64,000 bases of DNA from Cerina litoralis (GTDB lineage: Bacteria > Bacteroidota > Bacteroidia > Flavobacteriales > Flavobacteriaceae). The notes beneath the pieces are model-generated. The model saw only the letters and a program-made list of their open reading frames with translations, was not told where the DNA came from and did not search any database. The stretch is taken from contig JAIRBC010000011.1 in NCBI GenBank assembly GCA_022008415.1, forward strand, positions 62,001 to 126,000, given 5' to 3'. This document shows, piece by piece, positions 6,694-52,392 of the stretch (positions are counted from its first letter, which is position 1; every line of letters begins with the position of its first letter). A program made the translations under genes and the position numbers.

Positions 6694-7052
6694 TTAGCTT
6701 TTACTAGATAATTGATATATCCATTTTAAATTACAATCCATGATCATTAACTTTAATTCTTCATATGTCTATTTTCAATATAACCTATATCTAAACTGTC
6801 GATTGGTTGATCCAATAATTCATAAGCCGAACCTCTCGATGTTCTGCAAAATTGTGCATTTTCACTGTAATGGAATCCACCGTAACCTTCCGATATATTA
6901 TGGGTTACAGATCTTGATGCCCTTCGCATCTGAGAAACCAACGCCTATTTTTCATGCTCGGGAAACTGTTTAATAACTCTCGAGATTTCCCTTCGTAACC
7001 GAGTCTCATTTTTCCGGCAATCCAAATCTTCAAAAGTCCTAATATTTCCCAT
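6694..7052 (-). pseudogene. Broken four-helix-bundle (23S-IVP/TIGR02436-like) gene within the sdh operon
   Basis: From the ATG at 7052 the reading frame begins MGNIRTFEDLDCRKNETRL and continues to FPEHEK, where a TAG (6945-6947) stands at a position that is normally aromatic. The same frame then resumes ALVSQMRRASRSVTHNISEG and SRGSAYELLDQPIDSL, clear family hallmarks. Near residue 97 the frame shifts by one base, after which YEELKLMIMD continues to a stop at 6694. The total of 359 bp is one base short of 120 codons, which fits a single deletion. Proteins of this family form pentameric four-helix bundles; their function is unknown. The remnant lies between sdhA and sdhB. Confidence 0.88.
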
Positions 7053-7096
7053 AGAACTCTAAATTACAGTTAACTTTTAGCGGTTAACTATTAACA

Positions 7097-9100
7097 TTAT
7101 TTATAGCTCCTCGTCTTCAGCTCAATATTCTCATATACCAAGCTCTCCTTGTGGAGAACGGAATCCTTGGGTTCGCCTTTGTATTCCCAGGCGGAGACGA
7201 ACTTAAAGTTTTTGTCGTCCCTTAATGCCTCGCCTTCTTCGGTTTGGTATTCTTCCCGGAAATGTCCACCACAAGATTCATTTCGTGTTAACGCATCTTT
7301 GGCAAACAATTCGCCAAGCTCCAGAAAGTCGGCCACTCGGCCAGCTTTTTCCAATTCTTGGTTGAGCCCGTCGGCGGTTCCAGGAATCCTGACGTTTTCC
7401 CAAAAATCCGAACGGAGTTCTGAGATTTCCTTTATGGCTTCCTTTAATCCTTTCGCATTGCGCGACATTCCACATTTGTCCCACATAATATGACCCAGTT
7501 TCTTGTGGTAATGATCCACGGAATGCTTGCCTTTACCGGACATCAACCGCTCAATACGATCCCGAACATCTTTTTCAACCGAATCAAATTCGGCCGAATC
7601 GGTCGGGATAGGGCCCGTCCTAATATCATGCGATAAATAATCGCCAATAGTATACGGCAATATAAAATACCCGTCGGCCAACCCCTGCATAAGCGCAGAT
7701 GCTCCTAATCGGTTGGCGCCGTGATCGCTAAAGTTTGCCTCACCGGCCGCATAGCAACCGGGAATCGTAGTTTGTAAATTATAATCTACCCATAGGCCGC
7801 CCATGGTGTAGTGAACCGCTGGGTAGATCATCATGGGGGTTACATATGGATTTTCGTCCACAATTTTTTCGTACATCTGGAAGAGGTTCCCATACTTGGC
7901 CTCCACAATCCCTTCACCCAATTCGGTTATCTTTTCTTTTGAAGGATTGCTAAAACCGTGTATTTTCGCTTGTTCCTTGCCGTATCTTTCGATGGCCGAT
8001 TTAAAATCCAGAAATACGGCTTGCCCTGTTTTATTTACCCCAAAACCAGCGTCGCAACGTTCCTTGGCAGCCCTGGAAGCCACATCACGAGGTACGAGGT
8101 TGCCAAAAGCCGGATATCTTCTTTCCAAATAATAGTCCCTTTCTTCTTCGCTTAGTTGGGTAGGTTTCATTTTTCCTTCCCGGATCGCCTTGGCATCTTC
8201 CATGCGTTTTGGAACCCAGATTCGGCCGTCGTTCCTTAAGGATTCGGACATTAAGGTGAGTTTGGATTGATGATCCCCCGAAACCGGTATACAGGTGGGG
8301 TGAATCTGCGTATAGCAAGGGTTGGCAAAAAAGGCACCTCTACGGTGCGCCCGCCACGCTGCCATGACATTGCTGCCCATAGCGTTTGTAGACAGAAAGA
8401 ATACGTTGCCGTAACCACCACTTGCCAATACCACGGCATGGGCGGAATGTCGCTCAATTTCTCCGGTAACCAAATTTCGGGCTATTATGCCCCGTGCCTT
8501 GCCATCCACCAGCACAAGGTCTAACATCTCATGACGGTTATAGGCCTTGATCTTACCCCGATTTATCTGTCGGTTCATAGCGGCATAGGCACCCAACAAT
8601 AATTGTTGTCCGGTTTGGCCTTTAGCGTAGAATGTACGCGAGACCAGGACACCCCCAAAGGAACGGTTGTCCAACAATCCGCCGTATTCACGGGCAAAAG
8701 GAACCCCTTGTGCCACGCATTGGTCTATAATATTTCCAGATACCTCCGCCAGTCTGTACACGTTGGCCTCCCTAGAACGATAATCACCCCCTTTTACGGT
8801 GTCGTAAAAAAGTCGATAGTTGCTATCGCCGTCGCCTTGATAATTTTTTGCGGCATTGATACCGCCTTGAGCCGCAATGGAATGCGCCCTTCTGGGAGAA
8901 TCTTGGTAACAGAAGGTTTTTACATTGTATCCCAGTTCGGCAAAAGTAGCCGCAGCGGATCCTCCGGCAAGGCCGGTGCCCACGACGATTATATCTATCT
9001 TACGTTTATTGGCCGGGTTTACCAGATTGATGTCGTTCTTGTACTGTGTCCATTTATCGGCCAAAGGACCGGATGGAATTTTAGAATCCAAAATGCCCAT
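7097..9100 (-). CDS. sdhA: Succinate dehydrogenase/fumarate reductase flavoprotein subunit
   Basis: 667 residues, the catalytic subunit that oxidises succinate to fumarate in the TCA cycle. The FAD Rossmann motif [18 protein letters not shown] lies at about 40-57, and His73 in [20 protein letters not shown] is the expected covalent FAD attachment site. Fumarate-site motifs HPTCIPVSG and [15 protein letters not shown] are present, as is the C-terminal GGHFREE block. The length matches the longer Bacteroidota/epsilon-type SdhA. The gene begins 2 bp after the sdhC stop, so the two are translated from one message. Confidence 0.97.
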
Positions 9101-9102
9101 AA

Positions 9103-9771
9103 TTAATGTATTATTGGGTTAAGGTGATGGTATATAGCTATAATAATGAAGCCAAAGGGTACGGCCACCGCAAAGATTTTGCAAAAGACCTTTAGGCCTG
9201 GCGTGTATTTATTGTTTACCCCCATACTTTGGAAAGAGGATGCGAAACCATGCCACAAGTGCAAGGAAAGCAGCACAAAAGCAATGATGTACAATACCGT
9301 ACGCCACAGTGGTACAAATTTTTCAACGGTCTCTGCGTAATATCTCGAAGGATCCTGAGGCAGGACTTCAATATATTTATAATCGATTTCGTGAACCCAA
9401 AAGTCGTACATGTGCAGGCCTAAGAATGCCAAAATCACCAGTCCGGAAATGATCATGTTCCTCGAGGCCCAAGTAGAATTTCTATTGCCGTTGAACTTGG
9501 CGTATTTAACATTTCTAGCCTTGTTGTTCTGGATCTCCAGAACAAATCCCATAACGAAATGGACAATGACACCCGCAATGAGAATAGGTTGAAAAATGTA
9601 TTGGACCACCGGATTATAACCCATAAAATGGGACCATTGGTTAAAGGTATCCGGTGAGATTACGGAAGTGAAATTGATGGTAAAGTGCTGTGCCAAGAAC
9701 AATACCAAAAAAAGGCCGGAGAGGGCCATGGTCACCTTTCGGGCGATGGAAGATCGTATCAATCCGCTCAT
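9103..9771 (-). CDS. sdhC: Succinate dehydrogenase cytochrome b subunit (di-heme, SdhC type)
   Basis: 222 residues with five membrane segments (about 12-32, 56-78, 101-123, 156-178 and 196-218). Histidines expected to ligate two b hemes lie in these helices: [33 protein letters not shown] and LHLWHGF. This is the single-polypeptide membrane anchor of the succinate:menaquinone oxidoreductase (type B) used by Bacteroidota. It is the first gene of the operon, and a near-consensus promoter sits just upstream (9791-9821). Confidence 0.93.
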
Positions 9772-9790
9772 TGGTCTGGAGTTTTAAAGA

Positions 9791-9821
9791 CAAATTTAGG
9801 CCATGTATGGCTGTTTAACAA
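9791..9821 (-). promoter_or_regulatory. Promoter of the sdhCAB operon
   Basis: On the minus strand TTG (9819-9821), a 20-nt spacer and TAAATTTG (9791-9798) match the Bacteroidota promoter TTG-N19-21-TAnnTTTG. The predicted start lies about 13 nt before the sdhC ATG, giving a very short leader. Confidence 0.7.
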
Positions 9822-9858
9822 GCCCTAAGCAAATTAAGCCACGTTATTTATACTGGTT

Positions 9859-9963
9859 TTAAAGAATGACAGGGTTGGTGTCCCTAAAGGAAATCCATTT
9901 CCACACTGCGGGAATGTCTATGGTACAGCCATCCTTTTTTTGGTCGTGGCACAGCAATTGCAT
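9859..9963 (-). CDS. Possible 34-residue small ORF upstream of sdhC
   Basis: The minus strand encodes a 34-residue peptide beginning MQLLCHDQKKDGCTIDIPAV and ending in NPVIL. Its composition (Trp, Cys, Pro, Asp spread) looks protein-like, but it is short, shows no family motif, and ends about 90 bp before sdhC. It may be a small protein, a gene remnant or chance. The rest of this 357-bp divergent gap (9772-10128) holds the sdh promoter and a possible -7 element TAAATTTG at 10047-10054 for the aminopeptidase gene. Confidence 0.25.
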   Translation of the reverse strand: MQLLCHDQKKDGCTIDIPAVWKWISFRDTNPVIL

Positions 9964-10128
9964 AATTTTGCGAAATCAAAAAAAATAGCGTGCACGGGGC
10001 ATAAACAAAATCGATTTCATGTATATCTACAGATGTATTTTGTATTTAAATTTGTTTTATCGCCGACACAGCCATTGAACAGCGCGGCAAATTTTCATAA
10101 TTACAGCGCAACAAATAATTTATCCTAG

Positions 10129-11421
10129 ATGAAATACGACCTAATCGACAATAACCTCTTTATAAAAAACCGCAAAAAATTTATGGCGCAGATGATGCCC
10201 CACAGCCTTGCGGTTTTCAATTCTAACGATATTTACCCCATTGGGGCGGACAGCACCATGCCTTTTCAGCAACAACGGGATCTTTTTTACCTCAGCGGCG
10301 CGGATCAAGAGGAGACTATTTTGTTACTTTTCCCCGATTCGATCGAGGAGAAGCACAGGGAAATATTATTTGTACGCGAAACCAATGCCCACATTGCGGT
10401 ATGGGAGGGAGCTAAGCTTACCAAGGAAAGGGCAACCGAGGTCTCCGGCATTGAAACGGTTTATTGGCTGACCGAGTTCGACAAGATTTTCTACGGATTG
10501 ATGACCGAAGTAGATACAATTTATTTTAACACCAATGAACATTATCGCCAATCTGTCGAAACCCAGACCCGCGAAGATCGGTTTATCATAAGGTGTAAGG
10601 AAAAGTTCCCCGCCCACCAATGGGCCAAGAGCAATCCGATCCTTCAAAGGTTACGTGGAGTAAAGGAACCCGAGGAAATCGCTTTGATGCAAAGGGCGTG
10701 CGACATTACCGAAAAAGGATTCCGAAGACTTTTGGAATTTGTGAAGCCGGGGGTATGGGAATACGAAGTGGAAGCCGAATTGTTGCACGAGTTTATTAGA
10801 AACAGATCTCGCGGTTTCGCCTATACGCCGATCATTGCTTCGGGGAACAGCGCCAATGTGCTGCATTATGTGGAAAACAACAGGCAGTGCAAGGACGGCG
10901 ATCTTCTATTGCTCGATACGGCGGCAGAATACGCCAACTTTTCCAGTGATCTTACCCGTACCATTCCCGTAAACGGAAAATTCACAACCCGTCAAAAGGA
11001 AGTTTACGAAGCAGTTTTACGGGTAAAAAATGAAGCCACAAAAATGTTGGTGCCGGGCACCTATTGGGCCGAATACCACAAGGAAGTGGGAAAAATTATG
11101 ACTTCCGAATTGCTTGGCCTAGGTTTGCTGGATAAAAAAGACGTAAAAAACGAAAGCGAAGACTGGCCGGCCTATAAAAAATATTTTATGCACGGCACTA
11201 GCCATCACATTGGCCTGGACACCCATGATTATGGAGAACTTAAGTCCCCTATGAAAGCCAATATGGTATTTACGGTAGAGCCAGGCATCTATATTCCCGA
11301 AGAAGAATTTGGAATAAGGCTAGAAGATGACGTCGTGATCCAAGAAAAGGGCGAGCCATTCAATTTGATGGGCAACATTCCTATCGAAGCTAAAGAGATA
11401 GAGGATTTAATGAACAATTAG
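10129..11421 (+). CDS. pepP: Aminopeptidase P family protein (Xaa-Pro aminopeptidase)
   Basis: 430 residues, a cytosolic metallopeptidase that removes N-terminal residues preceding proline. The pita-bread (M24) domain carries the five metal ligands: Asp263 (LLLDTAAEY), Asp274 (SSDLTRT), His359 (MHGTSHHIGLD), Glu384 (TVEPGIY) and Glu399 (GIRLEDD). The N-terminal creatinase-like domain spans about 1-170. The ligand set and the length match PepP of the two-domain type rather than methionine aminopeptidase or prolidase, although prolidase activity cannot be excluded. It appears monocistronic and is divergent from sdhCAB. Confidence 0.93.
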   Translation: MKYDLIDNNLFIKNRKKFMAQMMPHSLAVFNSNDIYPIGADSTMPFQQQRDLFYLSGADQEETILLLFPDSIEEKHREILFVRETNAHIAVWEGAKLTKERATEVSGIETVYWLTEFDKIFYGLMTEVDTIYFNTNEHYRQSVETQTREDRFIIRCKEKFPAHQWAKSNPILQRLRGVKEPEEIALMQRACDITEKGFRRLLEFVKPGVWEYEVEAELLHEFIRNRSRGFAYTPIIASGNSANVLHYVENNRQCKDGDLLLLDTAAEYANFSSDLTRTIPVNGKFTTRQKEVYEAVLRVKNEATKMLVPGTYWAEYHKEVGKIMTSELLGLGLLDKKDVKNESEDWPAYKKYFMHGTSHHIGLDTHDYGELKSPMKANMVFTVEPGIYIPEEEFGIRLEDDVVIQEKGEPFNLMGNIPIEAKEIEDLMNN

Positions 11422-11696
11422 CGTTGCGTTAAGTCAACGGGGACGTAAGCTTTTTATTCTTTTATTAGCGATATTAAAATAGGTAAATCGTCGAGTTTAT
11501 TGTGCCGTTTGTCGAAAAAAATGTTTTTTATCCAAAAAAGAGCGAAAAAAGATTTCGGCGACCCAATAAATTGAATAGTATGGGCGTTAAGGATATTACA
11601 GTGATTTTAATTACCCAGTTTTTGATTTATAACTTGTATTAATCATAGCATTTTACGGTCCCCAAGGCTTACCAATGCACCCCTTAATCTCTACAG

Positions 11697-11951
11697 ATGA
11701 AAAAAGTTTTCTCTAACTATGGTTCCAAGCTCAGCTCCTTCTGCTGCAGTTTTTTTGGCCATCACTACGCCGTATCCAAGAAAGTAACATTGCATATCAA
11801 GGAATACAAATGTATTCATTGTGGCAAGGAAGTGACCACCGATGTAAGCGGAAATCTTTCGATGCTCACTCCAGAGCTACAGGAAATAAACAACACCTTG
11901 GAAAGGCTTTATCAAAAGAAACATCGGACTTCCACACAACAAGTAGCTTAA
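11697..11951 (+). CDS. Small cysteine-rich (zinc-ribbon-like) protein
   Basis: 84 residues. It has a Cys-Cys-x4-His-His cluster (SFCCSFFGHHY, about 17-27) and a CIHCGKEV knuckle (about 40-47), which together could bind one zinc. The C-terminal half (LTPELQEINNTLERLYQKK) looks helical. It resembles small conserved flavobacterial hypothetical proteins, but I cannot assign a function. It starts 275 bp after pepP; that gap shows no other gene. The stop is 5 bp from the convergent thiL stop. Confidence 0.6.
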   Translation: MKKVFSNYGSKLSSFCCSFFGHHYAVSKKVTLHIKEYKCIHCGKEVTTDVSGNLSMLTPELQEINNTLERLYQKKHRTSTQQVA

Positions 11952-11955
11952 AATA

Positions 11956-13008
11956 TCATTCCTTTTCGGAAAAAGAGTTCCAGCCCTGAGCGGTTAATGG
12001 AATTTTAGAATTATTCCTGGAAATTAAGTGCGCCCCTTCATTTTTATCCGTCATGTGCCCCACGACGGTTAAATTGGGATTGCCTTTTATTTTCGGGAAT
12101 TCTTTTTGGTCTATGGCAAAGAGCAGCTCGTAGTCCTCCCCGCCGCTCAAAGCCACCAGGGTGCTGTCTATCTTAAACTCCTCACATGCCGAAATTACGG
12201 TTGGATCCAAGGGAATTTTATCTTCATAAAGATTACACCCCACCTCACTTTTTTTGCACAGATGAAGGATTTCCGAAGAAAGTCCGTCACTGATGTCTAT
12301 CATAGAAGTAGGAATGACCCCCAGTTTCTTTAACAGCGCTACTATATCCTTCCTCGCTTCTGGTTTTAATTGGCGTTCCACTATATAGGTATAGGGCGAA
12401 AGGTCTGGTTGGCTGTTAGGATTTACCTTAAATACTTCCTTTTCACGCTCCAATACCTGCAATCCCATATAAGCCGCTCCTAGATCACCCGAAACCACTA
12501 ACAGGTCGTTTGGTTTTGCTCCTGATCGATATACTATGTCCTTATCTTCGGCACATCCTATCGCGGTAACACTCACGATCATACCTTTCTGGGAGGAGGT
12601 CATATCGCCCCCAACAAGGTCTATACCGTATATTTTACAGGCCAAAGCTACCCCGGCATAAAATTCCTCCAAAGCCTCCAAGGGAAACCGGTTGGACACG
12701 GCAAGTGAAACGGTAATTTGGGTGGGGTGGGCGTTCATGGCATAGATGTCGGAAAGATTTACCATCACCGATTTGTATCCCAAATGTTTTAAAGGCATGT
12801 AACTAAGGTCAAAATGTACGCCTTCGATTAACAGGTCTGTCGAAACAATGGTTTTCCTATCCCCAAAATGGAGCACTGCCGCATCGTCTCCTATTCCCTT
12901 TTGGGTAGATTTTTGCGTTGTCGAGAAACCTTTGGTCAAATGGTCTATCAATCCAAATTCCCCTAATTGCTGCAAGGGGGTGCTTTCTTGGTCCTTATCT
13001 TCTAACAT
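11956..13008 (-). CDS. thiL: Thiamine-monophosphate kinase
   Basis: 350 residues. It phosphorylates thiamine monophosphate to thiamine diphosphate with ATP. The PurM/AIR-synthase-like fold is shown by the N-terminal GDDAAVLHFG (ATP and Mg site), the TDLLIEGVHFD block, GGDMTSS near residue 137, and the conserved MIDISDGLSSEI and ALSGGEDYELLF motifs. The length is typical. No other thiamine genes are nearby, so it stands alone. The Bacteroidota homologues often carry a short Gln/Glu-rich N-terminus as seen here. Confidence 0.95.
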   Translation of the reverse strand: MLEDKDQESTPLQQLGEFGLIDHLTKGFSTTQKSTQKGIGDDAAVLHFGDRKTIVSTDLLIEGVHFDLSYMPLKHLGYKSVMVNLSDIYAMNAHPTQITVSLAVSNRFPLEALEEFYAGVALACKIYGIDLVGGDMTSSQKGMIVSVTAIGCAEDKDIVYRSGAKPNDLLVVSGDLGAAYMGLQVLEREKEVFKVNPNSQPDLSPYTYIVERQLKPEARKDIVALLKKLGVIPTSMIDISDGLSSEILHLCKKSEVGCNLYEDKIPLDPTVISACEEFKIDSTLVALSGGEDYELLFAIDQKEFPKIKGNPNLTVVGHMTDKNEGAHLISRNNSKIPLTAQGWNSFSEKE

Positions 13009-13154
13009 CTTAAATTAGGTTAATAAAGTGAATCGATGCAAAAGTAGGTACTACACCCAAAGAAACTAAGAAATTGTATCTATTTATCGCTCCCGATCTT
13101 CATTGGAAACAGGTATCGCTATCGTTTATCCCCAAATTCGTTATAATAATGTTG

Positions 13155-13185
13155 TAGTATATGGGAAACACGTACATATATACTA
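13155..13185. promoter_or_regulatory. Inverted repeat upstream of the suf promoter
   Basis: TAGTATAT (13155-13162) and ATATACTA (13178-13185) are exact reverse complements with a 15-nt spacer, overlapping the likely -33 to -7 region of the suf promoter. It is AT-rich and could be chance, or a second regulator site. Confidence 0.3.
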
Positions 13186-13191
13186 TATTTG
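13184..13191 (+). promoter_or_regulatory. Putative -7 element of the suf operon promoter
   Basis: TATATTTG matches TAnnTTTG. It would start transcription near 13198, giving a leader of about 23 nt to the ATG at 13221. At the -33 position only ATG, not TTG, is seen, so activation or weak basal strength is possible. Its position excludes the longer reading-frame start at 13161. Confidence 0.55.
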
Positions 13192-13194
13192 TAC

Positions 13195-13219
13195 TCTATT
13201 TAGAATTAATCCAATTAAG
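13195..13219. promoter_or_regulatory. Putative operator at the suf promoter, shared with hemA/araC
   Basis: TCTATTTAGA (13195-13204), spacer ATTAA, then TCCAATTAAG (13210-13219). The left half is identical over 10 bp to the operator at 465-474, the spacer is also 5 nt, and the right half agrees at 6 of 10 positions. It overlaps the predicted transcription start, as a repressor site would. Confidence 0.5.
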
Positions 13220-13220
13220 T

Positions 13221-13550
13221 ATGATCAAAGTATCGGAAACTGCCAAGCAAAAAGTGGTTGCCCTGATGACCGACGAAGGCTTCGATGCCAGCAAGGACTA
13301 TGTGCGCGTTGGTGTAAAGAGTGGGGGTTGTAGCGGGCTATCCTATGAGCTGCGCTTTGACAACAAGATGGATGAGACGGACAAAGTTTTCGAGGACAAT
13401 TCCGTTCGCATTATAGTGGATAAAAAAAGCTTCCTTTATCTCGCCGGGACCGTATTGGAATATTCGGGCGGATTGAACGGAAAAGGCTTTGTGTTTAATA
13501 ATCCCAACGCACAGCGCACCTGTGGATGTGGGGAGAGTTTTTCGCTTTAA
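13221..13550 (+). CDS. HesB/IscA/SufA-type iron-sulfur carrier protein
   Basis: 109 residues, A-type carrier that receives [Fe-S] clusters from the SUF scaffold and passes them to apoproteins. The three ligand cysteines are Cys37 (SGGCSGLSY), Cys101 and Cys103 (CGCGESF). I chose the ATG at 13221 (MIKVSETAKQ) because homologues begin there and the promoter lies between it and the earlier in-frame ATG at 13161. It heads the suf operon. In this genome the next gene is an inserted four-helix-bundle gene rather than sufB. Confidence 0.93.
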   Translation: MIKVSETAKQKVVALMTDEGFDASKDYVRVGVKSGGCSGLSYELRFDNKMDETDKVFEDNSVRIIVDKKSFLYLAGTVLEYSGGLNGKGFVFNNPNAQRTCGCGESFSL

Positions 13551-13554
13551 ATAA

Positions 13555-13586
13555 AGTAAAAAAGGTAAAAAGCTAAAGAGGTAAGG
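13555..13586. repeat. Octamer ladder upstream of the four-helix-bundle gene
   Basis: Four adjacent 8-bp units, AGTAAAAA, AGGTAAAA, AGCTAAAG and AGGTAAGG, fill the gap between the carrier gene and the four-helix-bundle start at 13593. Confidence 0.6.
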
Positions 13587-13592
13587 GGGATT

Positions 13593-13967
13593 ATGAATCA
13601 ATATACATCTTTTGAGGATTTGGAGGTTTATAAAGCTACCCTTTCGTTTACCGTCAATATATTTGAGGTGTTACAACAGGAAAAATTCAAAAAAGAGTTT
13701 GCCTTTGTCGATCAATTGAAACGAGCGACCCTTTCAATATCCAATAACATAGCCGAGGGTTTTGAAAGAGAAACCGATAAAGAATTGGTGGGTTTTCTAT
13801 ATTTTTCAAAGGGATCCGCGGGCGAAGTAAGAAATATCCTTAATGTGTTGGAAGCTGTAAAATATTTGGATGCCAATGACTATCAAAGTCTAAAGGGAGA
13901 TTCAAAACAACTTTCCAACTACATTAAATACGTTAAAAAGAAGGACGGATTTGATTTTAAATCATGA
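13593..13967 (+). CDS. Four-helix-bundle protein (23S-IVP/TIGR02436-like), intact
   Basis: 124 residues. Family hallmarks are visible: FEDLEVYKATLSFTVNIFE (helix 1), VDQLKRATLSISNNIAEGFE (helix 2), ELVGFLYFSKGSAGEVRNIL (helix 3) and the terminal LSNYIKYVKKK (helix 4). Relatives occur within 23S rRNA intervening sequences and as stand-alone bacterial genes; their function is not established. Here the gene lies in the suf operon between the A-type carrier and sufB, in the same direction, flanked on both sides by short AT-rich repeat ladders. Its core differs from both broken copies (6694-7052; 52060-52392), so the three were probably acquired separately. Confidence 0.9.
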   Translation: MNQYTSFEDLEVYKATLSFTVNIFEVLQQEKFKKEFAFVDQLKRATLSISNNIAEGFERETDKELVGFLYFSKGSAGEVRNILNVLEAVKYLDANDYQSLKGDSKQLSNYIKYVKKKDGFDFKS

Positions 13968-14020
13968 ACATTTTAGTTGTAATCATTAACTTTTTCCCTT
14001 TTTAACTCATTAACTTAATT

Positions 14021-16603: not shown

Positions 16604-16604
16604 A

Positions 16605-19866: not shown

Positions 19867-19940
19867 TATGGGTTTATTTGGCCTATGGCCAGTTTATAAG
19901 TTTAAGAAATTGAGCTTATAAACCTATGAACCTATAAACT
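19867..19940. repeat. Octamer ladder with inverted symmetry upstream of the DUF59 gene
   Basis: Eight-bp units AGTTTATA and AGTTTAAG (19891-19906) are followed by TATAAACC, TATGAACC and TATAAACT (19917-19940). The first and last units are exact reverse complements. Less regular octamers precede from 19867. The ladder ends 2 nt before the next ATG. Confidence 0.7.
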
Positions 19941-44534: not shown

Positions 44535-44542
44535 TATCTTTG
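44535..44542 (+). promoter_or_regulatory. Putative -7 element of the thioesterase gene
   Basis: TATCTTTG matches TAnnTTTG and lies 17 nt before the ATG at 44560. It overlaps an in-frame GTG at 44542, which argues against that earlier start. Confidence 0.5.
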
Positions 44543-44559
44543 TGCCAAAATATAGGAAT

Positions 44560-45081
44560 ATGCAGCCTAAGACACCTAGTGAATCCAGAACAACGATGAC
44601 CGATATGGTACTGCCGGGCGAGACCAACCCCCTTAATAATCTATTTGGGGGGGAGCTCCTCGCAAGAATGGATAGGGCGGCCAGTATTGCGGCCCGCCGC
44701 CATAGCAGAAAGATTACCGTGACCGCTTCCGTAAACCATGTGGCGTTTAACCAATCGGTACCTTTGGGGACCGTGCTTACCGTAGAAGCTGCCGTTTCTA
44801 GGGCCTTTAGAACCTCAATGGAGGTATATATCGATGTTTGGATGGAGGATCGCTACAACGGGGAGCGCTCAAAGGCAAACGAGGCCATCTTTACCTTTGT
44901 TGCAGTAGACGAAACCGGCCGCCCAACACAGGTGCCCCCCCTAAACCCCGAAACCACGTTGGAAAAAGAACGCTTTGAGGCCGCGTTGCGCAGAAAGCAG
45001 TTGAGTTTGGTCCTAGCCGGTAAAATGAAACCAGATCAAGCGACGGAACTGAAAGCGTTATTTTATCCTCCAAGCTCTTAA
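44560..45081 (+). CDS. Acyl-CoA thioesterase (hotdog fold)
   Basis: 173 residues. It hydrolyses acyl-CoA to free acid and CoA. The family motif LPGETNPLNNLFGGELLARMD near the N-terminus and VNHVAFNQSVPLGTVLTV are typical of the YciA/BFIT-type hotdog thioesterases; Asn and Asp in this block are the expected catalytic residues. A single hotdog domain is present. The start at 44560 is preferred over GTG 44542. The stop overlaps the convergent aldo-keto reductase stop by 4 nt. Confidence 0.9.
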   Translation: MQPKTPSESRTTMTDMVLPGETNPLNNLFGGELLARMDRAASIAARRHSRKITVTASVNHVAFNQSVPLGTVLTVEAAVSRAFRTSMEVYIDVWMEDRYNGERSKANEAIFTFVAVDETGRPTQVPPLNPETTLEKERFEAALRRKQLSLVLAGKMKPDQATELKALFYPPSS

Positions 45082-45914
45082 AAGTTAAAATTATCGGGGT
45101 CCGCACCAAACCTTTTTCCACGGTCCATACCTTTTAAAAGGACCATATCCTTTTGCGACAGTTCAAAATCGAAGATATCGGCATTGGCGATGATGCGGTC
45201 TCTGCGAACCGATTTGGGAATTGTAACGACACCATGCTGCAGATCCCACCGCAAAACGATCTGCGCAACGGTCTTTTTATACTGTTTGGCCAGATTCCTT
45301 ATTGGCTCCAAATCAAAGATATTTCCCTGCATCAATGGAGACCAAGCTTCATACTGGATGGTATTTTCAGAACAAAAATCAATCAACTCCTGCTGCACCA
45401 GATAGGGGTGAAACTCCATTTGGTTTACCATCGGAACTATGTTGGAATCGGGGATTAGGTCTTGCAAATGATGCTTTAAGAAATTGCTTACCCCAATGGC
45501 GCGGACGCGGCCCTCATTATATAAGTATTCCAGAGCCCGCCAGGTTTCCTTATATTTTCCTAAAACCGGCCAATGTACGAGATATAGGTCTAGGTAGTCC
45601 GTTTGCAACCTCCTTAAACTAGCGTCAAAGGCTTTTAGGGTAGACTCGTATCCCTGATCCGAATTCCACACCTTGCTGACCAGAAATACATCCTTGCGGT
45701 TTACCTCGCTTTCCCTAATACCCCGTCCGACCCCTTTTTCATTGTTGTATACCGAAGCGGTGTCGATATGCCTATACCCGGTTTCCAATGCCCATTTTAC
45801 CGCATTTGCCACCTCGAACCCGTCTTTGGATTGAAATACTCCCAATCCCAGATAAGGCATATCAACTCCATTGCGCAAGGTAAATGTACCCTTGATATCA
45901 GATATTTTGTGCAT
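45078..45914 (-). CDS. Aldo/keto reductase
   Basis: 278 residues, NADPH-dependent reductase of aldehydes or ketones. The tetrad is Asp51, Tyr56, Lys81 and His114 (RHIDTASVYNNE, LVSKVWN, LYLVHWP), and the C-terminal IPKSVRRDRIIANADIFDF is the NADPH phosphate-binding motif. It resembles the 2,5-diketo-gluconate reductase group (short-loop AKR5-like). The natural substrate cannot be told. It is likely the last gene of a run that starts upstream on the minus strand, separated by 15 bp from the M23 protein gene. Confidence 0.94.
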   Translation of the reverse strand: MHKISDIKGTFTLRNGVDMPYLGLGVFQSKDGFEVANAVKWALETGYRHIDTASVYNNEKGVGRGIRESEVNRKDVFLVSKVWNSDQGYESTLKAFDASLRRLQTDYLDLYLVHWPVLGKYKETWRALEYLYNEGRVRAIGVSNFLKHHLQDLIPDSNIVPMVNQMEFHPYLVQQELIDFCSENTIQYEAWSPLMQGNIFDLEPIRNLAKQYKKTVAQIVLRWDLQHGVVTIPKSVRRDRIIANADIFDFELSQKDMVLLKGMDRGKRFGADPDNFNF

Positions 45915-45929
45915 CCTGTTATAAATTCG

Positions 45930-47159
45930 TTATAATCGATATATCCATTCTTCCGGGTTGAGCCGCTGTGTATCCTTATAGAGGTAGAACTTCAACTGTG
46001 TTTGCCCGTTCAACCGATTGGTATAAACATCGCCGAGCGCTTCCTTCGCCGTAACCTTGTCGCCCTTTTTCACATAGAGATGGGATAGGTTGTAATACGT
46101 GCTTATATAATTGCCGTGTTTTAGCTGTACCCCTTTGTTCCCCCCCGGAACCGAAAGTATGGCAATGACTTCCCCGTCAAAAATGGCCCTGGCCTGTGCC
46201 CCTTCATCCGTGGCTATGATAACCCCATTACTTTCGTGCTTGATTCCCGGATAAATTGCATCGCGATAAACACCAAATCCCTGACTTTTGATCCCCTTTT
46301 CAACGGGCCAAATAAGCTTACCCTTATTGGCCGAAAAGTTATTGGCCAAAATTGTAGCCTCTGGGGTTAAGACGAACCTACTGGAATTTGTTGTATTCCC
46401 AGCTTTTTTATTTGAGGCGGCAATCGCGTTCCTGATCAGACGCTCGATCTGTTGATCTATCTTACGAGCCTCCGCTTCCTTCTTCCTTATGCTAGCGGTA
46501 TACTTACTCTCGTTCTCACGGATGGTACCCAGCAATGCCTTCTGATCGTTCATTTCCTGCATCATCTCTTTTCTGGCCTTTAAATTTGCCGCTACCAAAA
46601 GGTCTTTTTGTCTTCGCTGCTCGGACAAGTCCTTGTTGAGTTGGGTCAGTTCATTCGTTTTAGCCACCAACTTCTCGCCCTGATCCTTTCGGTACTTGGT
46701 ATATTGTTTCATATACTGATACCGTTTGAATGCCTGGAAAAAATTTTCGGAGGACAAAATAAACAACAACCTGTTTTGTTGCGATCGGTTTTCGTAGGAT
46801 TTTTGGATCATTGTAGCGTACTCCTCCTTTTGAAACTTTAGGTCTTCGCGCAGTTTGCCAATATTTCTAATGTTCGCATTGATCTGCCTGTTCAATAGGT
46901 TGGATTGTTGATTGGTGACACGGATAAGCTGCTGGCGAACGTTGATCTTTTTATCGAGCGCACTCATTTGGTCCAATACGGTGCCCTTTTCTTTCTTTTC
47001 TGCGAAAAGCAACCGGTTTATTTCATCGATCTCTTTTTGAAGCTGTTCCCGTTTTGCTTCCAAAGCCTTTTGTTCATTGGTTTGCCCATGGAGTCTTGCC
47101 ATGGAAACCAATGATATAAATAACAGACAGCAAATATAATATGAATGTTTACCTGTCAT
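45930..47159 (-). CDS. EnvC-like murein hydrolase activator (degenerate M23 domain)
   Basis: 409 residues. A signal peptide (cleaved near LHG/Q) is followed by a long coiled coil (about 28-250) and a C-terminal LytM/M23 domain (about 290-409). Active M23 enzymes keep His-x3-Asp and His-x-His zinc ligands; here the corresponding stretches are IKHESNGVIIATDEG and STYYNLSHLYVKK, so at least one ligand histidine is Asn. That is the EnvC pattern, a non-catalytic activator of amidases. It is 1 bp from the DUF4292 gene, likely one operon. Confidence 0.85.
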   Translation of the reverse strand: MTGKHSYYICCLLFISLVSMARLHGQTNEQKALEAKREQLQKEIDEINRLLFAEKKEKGTVLDQMSALDKKINVRQQLIRVTNQQSNLLNRQINANIRNIGKLREDLKFQKEEYATMIQKSYENRSQQNRLLFILSSENFFQAFKRYQYMKQYTKYRKDQGEKLVAKTNELTQLNKDLSEQRRQKDLLVAANLKARKEMMQEMNDQKALLGTIRENESKYTASIRKKEAEARKIDQQIERLIRNAIAASNKKAGNTTNSSRFVLTPEATILANNFSANKGKLIWPVEKGIKSQGFGVYRDAIYPGIKHESNGVIIATDEGAQARAIFDGEVIAILSVPGGNKGVQLKHGNYISTYYNLSHLYVKKGDKVTAKEALGDVYTNRLNGQTQLKFYLYKDTQRLNPEEWIYRL

Positions 47160-47160
47160 T

Positions 47161-47949
47161 TTACTTTAAGACTATCTCTTTAAAACCTTTTGGTATTCTA
47201 TATGGAAATGTCAACGGCCTATTATACTGCATATTCCTGTATTCTAAATTTATTGTGTTTTTAGAATCCCCGTCCAAGGCAGTAATCCCTATTTTATCTG
47301 GTAAGATCCAATGGCCAATGGATTGATATTTTCCATACTCTATATCCAACATTCTTTTTTTTAAGGGCTGGGATAATATTTGGGATGCCACCATATAACT
47401 TCTAGGATCGATCCGGAACATAGATTTAAAGAGGGCCATAGGCTGCCTAGGTTTTAGTACATACATTTGCCCGTCAAAGTTAGCACTATATTTTTCATCC
47501 TTTAGATTAAAGATGGCCCGCCCCAAAAGTACGTTCTGTATCTGGACAAAATTCAATTCCACTCCCAAAAATGTACTGAAATAGGAAAAGTCGCCGTCAA
47601 AGTATTCGTTGTTCAGTTTGTTGTAAAAAGTGACCCTATTTGGTGTGATATAGGCTTTAACAACTCCCATTGGAGCACTTATCCAAATGGCTTTGTCTCT
47701 TTCCATACGCAGACTTACCGTAAATTCCTGGGAAGATTCCCCGTCCGAATATGTTATTCTGGCCTTACCGCTGAGGGTCTTAAAATTGTTTTGATTATTG
47801 TAGTGGTTTCTAATGACGGCCCTGGAGGAAAGATTCTCGTCAATTGCCCCATCTACATCTATTTTGGCAGATTTACAGGAGCTAAGGAAAAGCACCACAA
47901 CGAAGTATCCCCAAAAAATTTGATGTCTGCCCAAATATTTGTTTGCCAT
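47161..47949 (-). CDS. DUF4292 family lipoprotein
   Basis: 262 residues. A long N-terminal hydrophobic segment ends in the lipobox FLSSC (Cys25), so it is probably lipidated. The mature part has a LolA/LolB-like beta pattern: FKTLSGKARITYSDGESSQE, FTVSLRMERDKAIWISAPMG and ARAIF-type strands. DUF4292 proteins of Bacteroidota are thought to be relatives of lipoprotein carrier proteins, but their role is unknown. It is in an operon with EnvC-like and TPR genes. Confidence 0.85.
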   Translation of the reverse strand: MANKYLGRHQIFWGYFVVVLFLSSCKSAKIDVDGAIDENLSSRAVIRNHYNNQNNFKTLSGKARITYSDGESSQEFTVSLRMERDKAIWISAPMGVVKAYITPNRVTFYNKLNNEYFDGDFSYFSTFLGVELNFVQIQNVLLGRAIFNLKDEKYSANFDGQMYVLKPRQPMALFKSMFRIDPRSYMVASQILSQPLKKRMLDIEYGKYQSIGHWILPDKIGITALDGDSKNTINLEYRNMQYNRPLTFPYRIPKGFKEIVLK

Positions 47950-47950
47950 T

Positions 47951-48877
47951 TCAGGATCCCGGTTTTATTTTACTAAGATACATATTTGCCTTGGAAGAAT
48001 TTCCCAAAGCACTATATGCATTTGACAACTGACGATAAATTTTGTTGTTCAATTCGGTATCATCCAAAAGATAGTCCAACGCAGATTCCAGGGTTTCGGA
48101 GGCTTTTTTATACTGGGAGTTATTATTTAGGGCAACCCCATAGGCGTAGTAGAAATAAGGCTGGGTCGGAAAACTTTCCAAGGCATTGGAGGCAATCTGT
48201 ATCAAAGCTTCATAATCTTTCAAAACAATCAGTTGTTCAATTTGGGAATAATAAGATTGCAAAGGGCCCTTTGATGACCCCTCCCTTTGGCCCACAGAAC
48301 TAACAGTTGCAGGATTTTGCTTAACGGCGATAGAGTCCTTGATCTTAAGCACCAAATTGGCCGTAAAGGAGGAAATTTTTATACCTTTTAGTACTTTTAG
48401 TGCTCCTTCGTAATTTCCATGCCAATAATAGATCAAGGCCAAGTTTTCCCTCAGTTGTATATTGTCGAACGGAATCCTAGTTTTAATCCCTTCAAATGAA
48501 TTCCCCAGCTTTGGAAGAATCTCCGCCAAAACGTTCAGGTACCAAAGGTTTTCCGGTTTTGAATTGAGCGCGTTAACGGCGTATTCCTGGGCTAAAACAA
48601 AATTGCCCCCATCACTATACGCCTTAGCCAATTCAAAATCCACAACTTCATTGTTCGGGCTAATTTCCTTGCACTTTAACAAAAGGATTATTGCTTTGTC
48701 GTAATTTTCTATCGCCTTTTGTTTTAAGGCCTCAAAAAACGCCTCTTGAAATTCATCGGAATACATTTCGGTGGAAACCGCGGCATTGCCTTCTTCCGGT
48801 TCTTGGGTAAGGGCATGATTCGGTTTGAGAAGCAACCCCAAAATAAAAAGAAAAAATAATGGCCCGGTATTTTTCAT
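47951..48877 (-). CDS. TPR-repeat protein, secreted
   Basis: 308 residues. Signal peptide residues about 1-23 (MKNTGPLFFLFILGLLLKPN, then HALTQ). Several tetratricopeptide repeats follow (KAIENYDKAIILLLKCKEIS, ELAKAYSDGGNFVLAQEYAV, YYAYGVALNNNSQYKKASET, QLSNAYSALGNSSKANMYLS). It is likely a periplasmic protein-protein adaptor. Start chosen at 48877 over 48904, since the extra nine residues would precede the signal peptide. Its neighbours (EnvC-like, DUF4292, dut) suggest cell-wall or envelope context. Confidence 0.82.
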   Translation of the reverse strand: MKNTGPLFFLFILGLLLKPNHALTQEPEEGNAAVSTEMYSDEFQEAFFEALKQKAIENYDKAIILLLKCKEISPNNEVVDFELAKAYSDGGNFVLAQEYAVNALNSKPENLWYLNVLAEILPKLGNSFEGIKTRIPFDNIQLRENLALIYYWHGNYEGALKVLKGIKISSFTANLVLKIKDSIAVKQNPATVSSVGQREGSSKGPLQSYYSQIEQLIVLKDYEALIQIASNALESFPTQPYFYYAYGVALNNNSQYKKASETLESALDYLLDDTELNNKIYRQLSNAYSALGNSSKANMYLSKIKPGS

Positions 48878-48912
48878 ATCTGAACTTAAGGATCCAAGGG
48901 GCAAGGGGACTT

Positions 48913-49347
48913 TTACTTCGTCCCGGTACTCCCAAAACCACCAGCACCACGAGAGGTCTCGGACAATTCCTCAACTTCCGACCATTCCGCGCGTTCGTGC
49001 TTGGCTATAATCAATTGGGCCACCCGTTCCCCATTGGTGACCGTAAACGAATCGTTGGACAGGTTAACCAGAATAACTCCTATTTCCCCCCTATAATCGG
49101 CGTCAATAGTTCCTGGGGAGTTGAGTACCGTTATTCCATTTTTGGCGGCCAATCCGCTGCGCGGACGTACCTGAGCCTCATAACCAATAGGCAATTCCAA
49201 AAAAAGACCTGTTTTAATTATGGCCCTCCCTAAAGGATTTAACGTAATTGGCTCTGAAATATTGGCTCTTAGATCCATTCCCGCCGATGCCCCTGTTTCG
49301 TACTGGGGCAGGGCATGGGAAGATCGGTTGATGATTTTTATATTCAT
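48913..49347 (-). CDS. dut: dUTP diphosphatase
   Basis: 144 residues. It hydrolyses dUTP to dUMP and keeps uracil out of DNA. The five trimeric dUTPase motifs are visible: [47 protein letters not shown] and the C-terminal [10 protein letters not shown]. Length and order are normal. It sits downstream of a flippase gene and a palindromic heptamer ladder. Confidence 0.97.
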
Positions 49348-49407
49348 ACGATTATGTTTTTCTACTAAGTACTATAGTAGATCGATTAATAATTTAGATG
49401 TCATCGA

Positions 49408-49442
49408 AACAGAGAGAATAGAATATAGAGAATAGACTATTG
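49408..49442. repeat. Heptamer ladder, left part, between dut and the flippase gene
   Basis: Five consecutive 7-bp units, AACAGAG, AGAATAG, AATATAG, AGAATAG and ACTATTG. Two of them, AACAGAG and AATATAG, return as exact reverse complements at 49479-49492. Confidence 0.7.
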
Positions 49443-49478
49443 ATTTAAAGTGCTAGGTAACGATCTGCTGGATTTTGT

Positions 49479-49499
49479 CTCTGTTCTATATTCTTTTTT
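49479..49499. repeat. Heptamer ladder, right part (reverse complement units)
   Basis: CTCTGTT (49479-49485) and CTATATT (49486-49492) are exact reverse complements of two units at 49408-49428, followed by a T-rich unit. The pair would fold into a stem in the transcript. Confidence 0.65.
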
Positions 49500-50959
49500 T
49501 ACTTCCTCAAAAATATTTGAGTGAGTTTTTCCCTTTCCATTTTGAAAACCAGCGCCAAAAATACAAAAAGTAAAAAGGATCCGATCCATATATTTCTATC
49601 AAATACATAGAAGGAAATAGCGGAAAACAGAATCGAGATGGTTAAATAGAAGTATATTTTGCGAAAATTATACGGGACCGGATAGTACTTTCTACCGAAA
49701 TAAAAAGAAAGCACCATCATACTGCCATAGGCAATCAGTGTAGCTATGGCAGAAGCCATATAACCCATGCTGGGAATAAGGGTGTAGTTTATCATAATGG
49801 TCAGAATGGCGCCTATCATGGAGATATAGGCCCCAAATTTTGTTTGATCCGTCACCTTGTACCAAACCGAAAGATTGTGGTAGATGCCCAAAAAGAAATT
49901 GGCCAGTACAATTAAGGGCACAACCGACATTGCCTCCCAATACGCAGGGTTTCTCACAAAAATCAACTTTAATACATCTGCATAAACCACGACCGCGAGC
50001 AAAATTACACTGCCCAGGACGATAAAGTAATTCGTGATCTGGGCATAGGCCTTCTGGGGGTTTTCGGTTGTGGAATGGCTAAAAAAGAAAGGTTCGATCC
50101 CCATCCTAAAAGCAGTTGCGAACAACGTCATGAACAAAGCCAATTTATAACAGGCCGCATATTTACCCACCTCGCTATCCGCGATACCTTCCGGTAACAA
50201 TTTTGCCAAAAGAATCTTGTCAAAGACCTCGTTGATTGTAAAGGCAATCCCCGCGATCATAACCGGCATGGCATATTTTATCATGTTTCTCCAAAGTGAA
50301 AAATCAAAAGCATACGGACGCCTAATATACAATCGGAGCATCATTAAGAGGGTAACACTGCTCGAAATAAGATTGGAGATAAAAATATAGGAGATTTCAA
50401 AATCGGGTTTATAAATCCCTGCCAAGAAGGATTCCGGGTTGGTCTGGACAATTTGCGGCAGATACCTAATAAAGAAAATATTGAGTCCTAGGTTGATGGC
50501 TACGTTCGTTAACTTGACCAACGCATATCGCATGGGCTTCTCGTTTGCCCTTAACCAGGCAAAAGGAACGATTACCAGTGCGTCCAAAACCAGGATCCAA
50601 ATGGCATATTGGATGTACTTTGCGTCGATTTCCGTGAATTGCGACATCCTATCCTGAAAAATTTGGGCCAAAACCAAGAAAAGAAGGGTACTTACCAATA
50701 TGGAAATCAGGGAGGTAGACACCATTTTTTTCCGGTTCGGGGCGTTGTGGTAAAACCTAAAAAAGGCCGTTTCCATCCCGTAGGCCAAGATTACATTGAA
50801 AATAGCGAACCAAGAAAAGATAACCGTTACCACCCCATAGCTATCGGTGACCAAATATTTGGTGTACAGGGGCAGGAGAAGAAAAGAGAGCATTCTAGGC
50901 AACACCGTTGCCAAACCATAGATAAAAGTTTGTTTGAAAAGTTTATTAAGCGGGTTCAA
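49499..50959 (-). CDS. Oligosaccharide flippase family protein (Wzx-type)
   Basis: 486 residues with about 12-14 hydrophobic helices and the polysaccharide-biosynthesis (MATE/MOP) pattern. The N-terminus LNKLFKQTFIYGLATVLPRM is a typical flippase start. It probably moves lipid-linked sugars across the inner membrane. No glycosyltransferase genes are in the window, so its substrate is unknown. It precedes dut in the same direction. Confidence 0.88.
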   Translation of the reverse strand: MNPLNKLFKQTFIYGLATVLPRMLSFLLLPLYTKYLVTDSYGVVTVIFSWFAIFNVILAYGMETAFFRFYHNAPNRKKMVSTSLISILVSTLLFLVLAQIFQDRMSQFTEIDAKYIQYAIWILVLDALVIVPFAWLRANEKPMRYALVKLTNVAINLGLNIFFIRYLPQIVQTNPESFLAGIYKPDFEISYIFISNLISSSVTLLMMLRLYIRRPYAFDFSLWRNMIKYAMPVMIAGIAFTINEVFDKILLAKLLPEGIADSEVGKYAACYKLALFMTLFATAFRMGIEPFFFSHSTTENPQKAYAQITNYFIVLGSVILLAVVVYADVLKLIFVRNPAYWEAMSVVPLIVLANFFLGIYHNLSVWYKVTDQTKFGAYISMIGAILTIMINYTLIPSMGYMASAIATLIAYGSMMVLSFYFGRKYYPVPYNFRKIYFYLTISILFSAISFYVFDRNIWIGSFLLFVFLALVFKMEREKLTQIFLRK

Positions 50960-51161
50960 CTAGAATAATATTAGGAAATTTAAAAGTAGGTATTTATACA
51001 TTCGCAACAAAGGATGATCCACGCTTTGAGCATATTATTCCCAAGGAAGTCGTTCCGGTTGTGTTACGCTGGCACTAGGGACCGAGACCATGCCAAAAAC
51101 CGGTAGTCCACAAAAAAACCCCGTTGGAGACGGGGTTTTAAATTATTTTCTATTGCAAATC
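50960..51161. other. Intergenic region between the flippase gene and atpG
   Basis: No gene is established here. One plus-strand frame (about 50993-51079) reads protein-like, with KDDPRFEHIIPKEVVPVVLR before a stop, but it lacks an ATG. The atp terminator lies at its right end. Confidence 0.35.
51112..51139 (-). terminator. Terminator of the atp operon
   Basis: AAAACCCCG pairs with CGGGGTTTT around a TTGGAGA loop; a T-run follows on the minus strand. It lies 22 bp beyond the atpG stop. Confidence 0.9.
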
Positions 51162-52022
51162 TTAATTGTTCAATGCCTCTGCACCACCCACAATCTCCAA
51201 GATTTCATTGGTGATGGCCGCCTGTCTGGCTTTGTTGTAGCTCAGTTTTAACTGATCTCTAAGTTCTGTGGCGTTATCGGTTGCCTTGTGCATGGCGGTC
51301 ATACGGGCACCGTGCTCACTGGCGAACGAATCGCGTATTTCTTTATACAATTGCGTCTTCAATGATTTCGGAATTAATTGCTCCACAATTTCTGCTTTGG
51401 TAGGCTCAAAAATATAATCCGCATTGACATTCTCTCCTTCGGCGACGGGAACAATAGGTAAAAATTGTTCGGTCATCACTGTTTGGGTGGCCGCATTTTT
51501 AAACTTGTTGTACACAACATCGATCCTGTCATAGGAACCATTTGCAAACAAAGCCATCAACTCTTCGGCTATAAGGGCAACATTGTCAAAGGAAAGGTCA
51601 TCGTATACTTGGCTGTGGTTAGAGATTACATTGGTCTTTTTCGATAGGATATCATTCGCCTTTTTCCCAATCGCCATAAAATCTACTTGCTTTCCGGCAT
51701 AGGTTTCATTGGCCAAGGCCTGACTTCTCTTAATAACATTGGTGTTAAAAGCGCCACAGAGCCCACGATTGGAAGTCACCGCTACGACCAGCACCTTCTT
51801 AACCTCTCTATTATCTGAATATTTACTATCCGAATCAACATCCAAACTGGCACTTAAATTCTGTAATAGCTCGGTGAGCTTGTCCGAATAGGGCCGCATG
51901 GCCGTAATGGCGTCCTGGGCCTTCTTCAACTTTGCTGCCGACACCATTTTCATGGCGCTGGTAATCTGCATCGTAGAGGATACCGAGGCTATTCTGTTTC
52001 GTATTTCCTTTAAGTTAGCCAT
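51162..52022 (-). CDS. atpG: F-type ATP synthase gamma subunit
   Basis: 286 residues, the rotor shaft of the F1 head. The N-terminus MANLKEIRNRIASVSSTMQI and SRGLCGAFNTNVIKR are conserved, as is the C-terminal NKARQAAITNEILEIVGGAEAL. It is the last gene of the operon atpB-E-F-H-A-G; beta and epsilon are not in the window, as usual in Bacteroidota. The spacer between it and atpA contains a broken four-helix-bundle gene. Confidence 0.97.
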   Translation of the reverse strand: MANLKEIRNRIASVSSTMQITSAMKMVSAAKLKKAQDAITAMRPYSDKLTELLQNLSASLDVDSDSKYSDNREVKKVLVVAVTSNRGLCGAFNTNVIKRSQALANETYAGKQVDFMAIGKKANDILSKKTNVISNHSQVYDDLSFDNVALIAEELMALFANGSYDRIDVVYNKFKNAATQTVMTEQFLPIVPVAEGENVNADYIFEPTKAEIVEQLIPKSLKTQLYKEIRDSFASEHGARMTAMHKATDNATELRDQLKLSYNKARQAAITNEILEIVGGAEALNN

Positions 52023-52059
52023 TCTTTATAATTATGGATTTGGAATGAATAATTCTGAA

Positions 52060-52392
52060 TTGGGAATTTCTAATTAATGTTACCAAAAATTTTATAAGTT
52101 CCACACATTTCTATTTCAAATCGATTGGAATTGGCATGGTAGTTTCCTTTAATATCTCCAACCAATATGGAGTTTCGTCGGCTTCCTTTAAAGCAATTCC
52201 TAACTTGTTCTTGAAATCCTTTGCGCTAACGCCTCGTTGCGATTCCCTAGCATTTGCACCAATACTTGTTCTTCATTTACGTAATTGATGGGCAATTTCA
52301 AAATCTCCTCTTCCTTTTAATATTCTACTGAAAAGAACAATATCGCATCCAAAAAGAAAACTTTTGTCCACAATTGGATTGCCCTTTACCTT
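52060..52392 (-). pseudogene. Broken four-helix-bundle gene between atpA and atpG
   Basis: On the minus strand one frame reads VKGNPIVDKSFLFGCDIVLF and then ILKGRGDFEIAHQLRK, hits TGA, and continues RTSIGANARESQRGVSAKDF, KNKLGIALKEADETPYWLEI and LKETTMPIPIDLK. A TAG follows at 52111-52113 and then KCVELIKFLVTLIRN in the same frame. These are the hallmarks of the TIGR02436 four-helix-bundle family (TSIGAN, KDFxxKLxIALKEAxETxYWL). The start codon is AAG where ATG is expected. Thus the gene has two stops and a lost start. It is recognisable to about 52060 and the frame closes at 52015, inside atpG. Confidence 0.88.

Follow-up and report, generated by a model that had tools for sequence, protein, structure and literature searches.

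Four-helix-bundle genes in Bacteroidota operon spacers are mostly bracketed by inverted heptamer arms: a likely messenger-RNA counterpart of rRNA intervening sequences

Introduction

The intervening sequence (IVS) of Coxiella 23S ribosomal RNA (rRNA) is the closest described counterpart of the elements reported here. According to its description (PMC4990558), its complementary ends form a 28-bp stem with tandem GACAGAT heptamers in the 5' end, it carries a sense reading frame of the S23p/IVP family, and it is cleaved by RNase III in vitro. We describe genes of the same protein family (PF05635/TIGR02436, four-helix-bundle proteins) that lie between protein-coding genes of operons in a 64,000-nucleotide stretch of Cerina litoralis (Flavobacteriaceae) DNA (contig JAIRBC010000011.1, positions 62,001 to 126,000; this whole stretch is "the window" below), in the rest of its genome and across the Bacteroidota. 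Their spacers have arms of heptamer repeats that pair in inverted orientation in most copies, the genes are in the sense orientation between codirectional neighbours, the same spacer can be filled in one genome and empty in another, and hairpins without a gene occur as well.

These elements share with the Coxiella insert (PMC4990558) the protein family, stem-forming ends, heptamer direct repeats at the 5' end, a sense gene, sporadic presence and frequent gene decay. They differ from 23S rRNA IVSs in lying between the stop and start codons of protein-coding genes at many sites per genome, in having arms that differ from copy to copy, and in that RNase III cleavage is in their case our inference. 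All ten loci of the C. litoralis genome lie between protein-coding frames, so they are not rRNA IVSs, though they may work like one; complementary, stem-forming ends of the IVS type are present except in some copies (the hisF-hisA copy has none).

Three other systems bear comparison. REPIN-RAYT systems (PMC3116915) likewise have short palindromes in intergenic spacers and a candidate mobilising gene beside gene-less copies; unlike them, the four-helix-bundle copies share no arm sequence (own arm pairs score 11.5 against 5.5 when swapped, below), the gene lies inside the hairpin, and it matches PF05635 and no transposase family, although no search was aimed at HUH (Y1) transposases. Unlike the Avd protein of diversity-generating retroelements, the genes occur in a genome with no reverse transcriptase match; template and variable repeats were not searched for. 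Finally, intergenic arrays of one heptamer word, such as TAACTGA, which are nearly always direct repeats, have been reported in Bacteroidetes in spacers behind stops or before starts, as our heptamers are; the terms "four helix", "S23" and "intervening" are absent from the text of that paper (PMC4679880). Among openly licensed literature, titles and abstract starts gave nothing that treats PF05635 genes in operon spacers or their inverted arms, and PMC5524665 does no more than list, in a table, one gene of this kind that has guanylate kinase on one side and a nucleotidyltransferase on the other.

Results

A PF05635 profile search of the genome's contigs (expectation value, E, up to 10) found the family in three places within the window:

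6704–7052, minus strand: sdh-element gene, four-helix-bundle, in the sdhA/sdhB spacer; broken by one in-frame TAG
13593–13967, plus strand: suf-element gene, four-helix-bundle, 124 amino acids, in the spacer between an A-type carrier gene and sufB; intact
52070–52384, minus strand: atp-element gene, four-helix-bundle, in the atpA/atpG spacer; broken, with one TGA and no ATG at its head

The frame of the suf copy is open; it matches PF05635 at 13614–13925 (plus strand) with 95.7–95.9 bits against a Pfam cut-off of 33.8, is TIGR02436 by NCBIfam (86.3 bits, cut-off 24), and matches no transposase family. The PF05635 core of the sdh copy (6756–7031, minus strand) scores 79.0 bits over profile positions 1–92, and that of the atp copy (52135–52374, minus strand) 52.7 bits over positions 5–84, in a spacer with no ATG ahead of the gene. 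Family searches of the neighbours gave sdhA, sdhB, the A-type carrier (TIGR00049), sufB, atpA and atpG. The initial annotation, made from sequence alone, had placed genes of this family in these three spacers, all in the sense of the host operon, two of them broken and one intact; the searches bear this out, with the sdh frame now ending at a stop at 6704 instead of at 6694. Not noted in it were the arms of inverted heptamers, the hairpins that lack a gene and a second cargo family, all described below. The family has the four-helix bundle of 2GSC/2RLD and also the fold of Avd: a sequence search of the PDB returned 2gsc and 2rld without Avd, and a fold search included Avd.

Over the whole genome the 12 rows of the PF05635 search merge into ten loci (one copy on contig C101 is split, and one row is the tail of a C112 copy), of which seven are above the Pfam cut-off and three below. 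Beyond the window lie seven loci: a fadB-fadA-acyl-CoA dehydrogenase cluster has two of them, and leuC-leuD, ffh-folD, the spacer between an OsmC-like gene and recJ, a dehydrogenase spacer and hisF-hisA have one apiece. The last three are those below the cut-off; the dehydrogenase spacer match has an E of 0.002, and that in hisF-hisA only 0.38, which is not significant alone, so the hisF-hisA locus rests on position. Only the suf and leu copies look complete. The names sdhA, sdhB, A-type carrier, sufB, atpA, atpG, leuC, leuD, ffh and folD are backed by family search; the fad, his, recJ, paa, hem, trp, met, gro, rfb, sufC, sufD and sugar-nucleotide genes are what we take them to be from reading protein sequence or position by eye.

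The window, 64 kb of 4.75 Mb, holds three of the ten loci, an excess by simple comparison with the 0.13 expected from its length. All ten lie between codirectional genes and on the sense strand, and none is in a convergent spacer. With neighbouring genes called by an open-reading-frame heuristic, the chance of such an outcome is about 3e-5, assuming random strand and 70% codirectional neighbour pairs (40 of the 57 pairs within the window), so operon placement exceeds chance. The essential operons that the initial annotation had stressed are not required as hosts: spacers of the leu, his and fad operons are used too.

The same placement, with neighbours called by the same heuristic here, in the phylum sample and for the GxxExxY genes below, is found in the bacterial family, where 69 of the 70 best-scoring copies (the first 30 and the next 40 matches, so that intact, long-inherited copies are over-represented) have both neighbours codirectional with the gene. 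These 70 copies occupy roughly thirty sites (33 automatic classes, a few of which may be split sites) whose presumed names include fadB-fadA, metH, hem, trp, groES-groEL and rfb; 25 of the 70 occupy the fadB-fadA-type spacer, no two of them in the same genome. In a sample of Bacteroidota the gene family was present in 80 of 118 genomes (match at E 1e-15). Of 29 loci taken from across the phylum, 21 have both neighbours codirectional, three only the upstream neighbour (operon ends), two are placed otherwise and three were unresolved.

In most copies the spacer opens with degenerate heptamer repeats near the upstream stop codon and closes with their reverse complement before the next start codon. 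The repeat word is copy-specific (GTTAATC in sdh, GAGCCTA and CTAGAAA in the two fad spacers), and the arms within one copy match. Those of the window are:

7069–7096, minus strand: 5' arm of the sdh element, GTTAATM-like heptamers starting right behind the sdhA stop codon
6669–6698, minus strand: 3' arm of the sdh element, built of ATTAACG heptamers; complement of the 5' arm
13554–13586, plus strand: 5' arm of the suf element
13981–14016, plus strand: 3' arm of the suf element
52389–52407, minus strand: 5' arm of the atp element, which shares bases with the atpA stop codon
52042–52072, minus strand: 3' arm of the atp element

Predicted duplex energies of the sdh, suf and atp arms are -13.5, -15.3 and -15.7 kcal/mol, respectively, against means of -8.5, -10.0 and -6.8 kcal/mol with other copies' arms. 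Own arm pairs scored 12.7 and swapped pairs 7.0 over 72 loci (eight of 80 were dropped, their arms being short); the values were 11.5 and 5.5 for the ten C. litoralis loci and 12.75 and 9.86 for 26 copies at one and the same fad site (p ≤ 5e-5 in each of these comparisons), and 12.8 and 6.5 across the phylum (n = 28, one of the 29 loci dropped). After eleven of the 80 loci were dropped from the arm-duplex and pairing-mode tests, 69 remained, in 55 of which the reverse-complement mode outscored the direct, complement-only and reverse-only modes. Ranked among all 70 right arms, a locus's own came fourth or better in 34 loci, against an expectation of four. Self-match at a lag of seven bases (lag-7) is 0.466 in left arms and 0.479 in right arms, and about 0.29 at most other lags. 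The arms also hold more stop codons than shuffled sequences do (z 4.5 and 5.5), and at the sdh and paa sites the insert begins immediately after the stop codon. At one locus (L085) the 5' arm ahead of the gene has grown to about ten copies of a 14-base repeat, that is, of two heptamers. The A-C mismatches between arms are wobble-compatible on the antisense strand.

Spacers of the window also contain hairpins without a gene, with inverted-repeat z-scores that are uncorrected for the 46 spacers:

53990–54034, minus strand: heptamer hairpin of TCTACCG repeats without a gene, upstream of atpA in the adjoining spacer; lag-7 0.93 (best 14-base stretch), z 3.0
54599–54668, minus strand: hairpin without a gene, one atp spacer further upstream, with a loop of about 24; lag-7 0.64, z 2.7
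19891–19940, plus strand: gene-less hairpin in another codirectional spacer, loop of about 26; lag-7 only 0.50, z 4.1
49417–49497, minus strand: gene-less hairpin in another codirectional spacer, loop of about 39; lag-7 0.71, z 3.1

Beside the atp element, two successive spacers of its operon thus have gene-less hairpins, the first with clear heptamers and both with modest z. Adjoining the sdh operon at 5313–5786 (minus strand) is a frame that we take, by eye, to be a Vsr-like endonuclease; no arms were noticed there.

The sdhA-sdhB spacer was compared in 80 other genomes, where it is at most 15 nucleotides (nt) long in 40, 16–40 nt in three, 41–150 nt in 21 and longer in 16. The gene is present in 11 of the 16 long spacers, in the sense orientation in all 11. 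The 21 mid-sized spacers gave no match to the four-helix-bundle gene; their halves have lag-7 values of 0.48 and 0.63 and a half-to-half pairing of 8.67 versus 6.52 (p ≤ 5e-5), and they are mostly gene-less heptamer hairpins, while a few seem unrelated. On a tree the sdh-site proteins fall into three groups, with three changes of site label, two of them forced by well-supported branches, that could be gains or losses (the tree was built without the C. litoralis sdh copy, three other sdh-site copies, of which one is identical and two are short, and 19 of the 25 fadB-fadA copies of relatives). Two Arenibacter species have different protein groups in this spacer and a third has the hairpin only, and a decayed relative of the window's sdh copy is found in L170 (49% over 67 residues, E 1e-17). 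Three genomes (L171, L300 and L343) have a different small reading frame in the sdhA-sdhB spacer, which by eye is membrane-protein-like in L171 and L300.

Upstream of sufB, one of 29 relatives (L100) has the remains of a gene related to the suf copy (50% over 44 residues, E 3e-8; four of the 30 spacers compared were unresolved), and L100, L108 and L110 have relatives of the suf protein downstream of sufB, i.e., in other suf-operon spacers. A remnant suspected by eye in L109 was not confirmed by tblastn. The two C. litoralis fad copies, in adjacent spacers, are close kin on the family tree (from which five of the ten own copies, too short or broken, were left out). Such kin in neighbouring suf and fad spacers suggest movement within operons, with a change in gene order as a possible alternative.

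The presumed paa operon was compared in six congeners of another family, in which the same spacer may hold one protein type, another type, a decayed copy or nothing (3 nt or overlapping genes), and the presence of the gene varies among congeners at each of four spacers. Two further paa spacers have gene-less hairpins, and in one of them both arms changed together between species. Near the head of this operon L264, L266, L267 and L268 have an antisense pair of genes, VapBC-like when read by eye, which is not in G360 or G364.

Whether these sites are filled in all relatives was one of the counter-tests proposed with the initial annotation, and the answer is mixed. They are not, as the 40 very short sdh spacers and the three sdh protein groups show, but part of the positions have been passed down: at nine of 14 multi-copy sites the proteins of the site group together (single-copy sites, which were not counted, may fall inside these groups), and L100 and L170 retain decayed copies in place. 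The suggested preference for, or survival in, operon spacers is partly supported: the placement stands (10/10 in the genome, 69/70 in the family, 21/29 in the phylum), and mixed inheritance together with unfilled sites makes both insertion preference and survival plausible.

A second gene occurs in the same setting. The sole GxxExxY (PF13366) gene found in the C. litoralis genome (L120, 1480–1863, on G000:C87) lies in the sense orientation between two genes that we take to be sugar-nucleotide genes, with matching arms ATGCGAATTATG on either side. The search for this family listed 47 matches in 23 of 100 genomes, from which 30 loci were drawn and two skipped for short matches; both neighbours were codirectional in 25 of 28. 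In the arm test, from which two more loci were out, own pairs scored 12.1 and swapped pairs 7.4 (n = 26, p ≤ 5e-5). The GxxExxY arms of these family loci lack the 7-base period and show just a faint, broad peak around 10, and the repeat grammar thus seems, from these sequences, to follow the cargo (7 for the four-helix-bundle gene, no 7 for GxxExxY).

Discussion

The above results show one architecture recurring across the phylum, which connects an orphan protein family with heptamer hairpins and rRNA IVSs; its movement and RNA processing are what we propose. In our judgment the arms and the four-helix-bundle gene probably make up a single small mobile element, which settles in the gaps between operon genes and is predicted to fold from the shared transcript as a stem-loop, like the 23S rRNA IVS. 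The element would insert behind the stop codon and ahead of the next start, its arms are predicted to pair into a stem-loop in the shared transcript, and RNase III would cut the stem while the host operon stays expressed. The protein, with its Avd-like fold and likely a nucleic-acid-binding pentamer, would act on the hairpin; arms and gene would move as one unit, and the gene-less hairpins may be deleted or non-autonomous versions. Since the stem is likely cut from the message, insertion between stop and next start would do little harm. The operon copies share the parts of the Coxiella insert, location and cleavage aside, and we therefore favour a mobile, hairpin-bracketed gene; on our best reading the elements are likely the messenger-RNA counterpart of rRNA IVSs.

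A number of results weigh against this proposal. Matching arms are not universal: just 34 loci rank their own right arm within the first four of 70, and the hisF-hisA copy has no arm pairing (-6.6 versus -10.3 kcal/mol with other arms). Control spacers (105 other spacers from the same loci) also have a lag-7 self-match of 0.37, partly because they include arms and gene-less hairpins, and 30% of them pass an 11-of-14 heptamer test that 41% and 46% of arms pass. Arm resemblance is 12.8 for 42 cross-site pairs with proteins more than 60% identical, against 7.5–7.7 for most pairs, but some of the 42 may be one site split by clustering, and arm similarity across different sites follows protein similarity weakly when all pairs are taken (rho 0.09, p = 0.04). 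Read in the transcript, the mismatches between arms show no excess of G-U (37, as opposed to 80 A-C, in 59 loci; A-C exceeds G-U in 27 loci and the reverse holds in six, which the A-richness of both arms may explain), and whole-spacer RNAs fold no better than shuffled ones (z -0.74 for sdh and -0.11 for leu); neither result supports selection on the folded RNA. We saw no movement and, without a systematic search for it, no target-site duplication. Lastly, the low ratio of nonsynonymous to synonymous substitution rates (dN/dS) discussed next is easier to reconcile with a host function than with a purely parasitic gene.

That ratio bears chiefly on the possibility that the genes are operon-embedded regulators, in which the protein binds its own hairpin and tunes the downstream gene, and the host keeps intact copies. 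Same-type paa copies have a dN/dS of 0.02–0.09 (14 comparisons with unsaturated dS, out of 26 of which 11 had saturated dS and one was between different types, at 0.32; the G364 copy is truncated), as low as the 0.02–0.16 of the flanking enzymes, so that intact copies of this one operon are under strong purifying selection. Regulation would also fit the recurrence of a fadB-fadA-type copy in the family loci (25/70, in different genomes) and the possession by each copy of its own arms. We nonetheless think it unlikely: congeners differ in presence at all four paa spacers, 40 of 80 sdh spacers are empty, different protein groups can sit in one spacer, and only the suf and leu copies of C. litoralis look complete.

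Less probable again is a plain host origin of the heptamer hairpins, as common simple-sequence or intercistronic palindromes made by slippage and hairpin-templated repair, among which the genes were merely caught. Gene-less heptamer hairpins are indeed found in many spacers, the control spacers share the lag-7 signal, and the report on Bacteroidetes heptamer arrays does not mention this gene (PMC4679880). Against it, the period varies with the cargo (7 against a weak 10 or so for GxxExxY), arms resemble each other where close proteins occupy different sites (some such pairs perhaps being one split site), and both arms shift together at one site between species. Survivor bias alone, in which elements insert at random and persist only where a same-strand spacer tolerates them, is in line with frequent decay and loss, and insertions within genes would be purged, but it is very improbable given that convergent spacers should tolerate inserts and hold none of the ten own copies, that sdh and paa inserts start right behind the stop codon, and that orientation is sense in 10/10 own copies and 11/11 at the sdh site.

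Movement driven by a resident reverse transcriptase was considered as a requirement and rejected. The C. litoralis genome (99.96% complete) has no PF00078 reverse transcriptase match at E 1e-5, nor do the copy-rich G006 and G007 (11 and 16 gene matches), and only 37 of 148 family genomes have one; an incoming enzyme is possible.

Going beyond the favoured proposal of a mobile stem-loop, and with rather less than even confidence, we suggest that the hairpin, not a transposase, may define a new class of mobile elements. Its members would have self-complementary arms built from short repeats at stop-start junctions and interchangeable loop genes (four-helix-bundle with period 7, nuclease-like GxxExxY with a longer period), would hop to adjacent spacers within an operon, leave gene-less remnants and remain harmless by being excised at the level of the transcript, and rRNA IVSs would be the ribosomal branch of the class.

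The PF05635 family is found in 80 of the 118 Bacteroidota genomes sampled, without an established role. If the mobile stem-loop proposal is true, this orphan family, the heptamer repeats and the rRNA IVSs would be one system, testable in a tractable flavobacterium, and many operons in Bacteroidota would contain stem-loops through which their messages may be cut or tuned.

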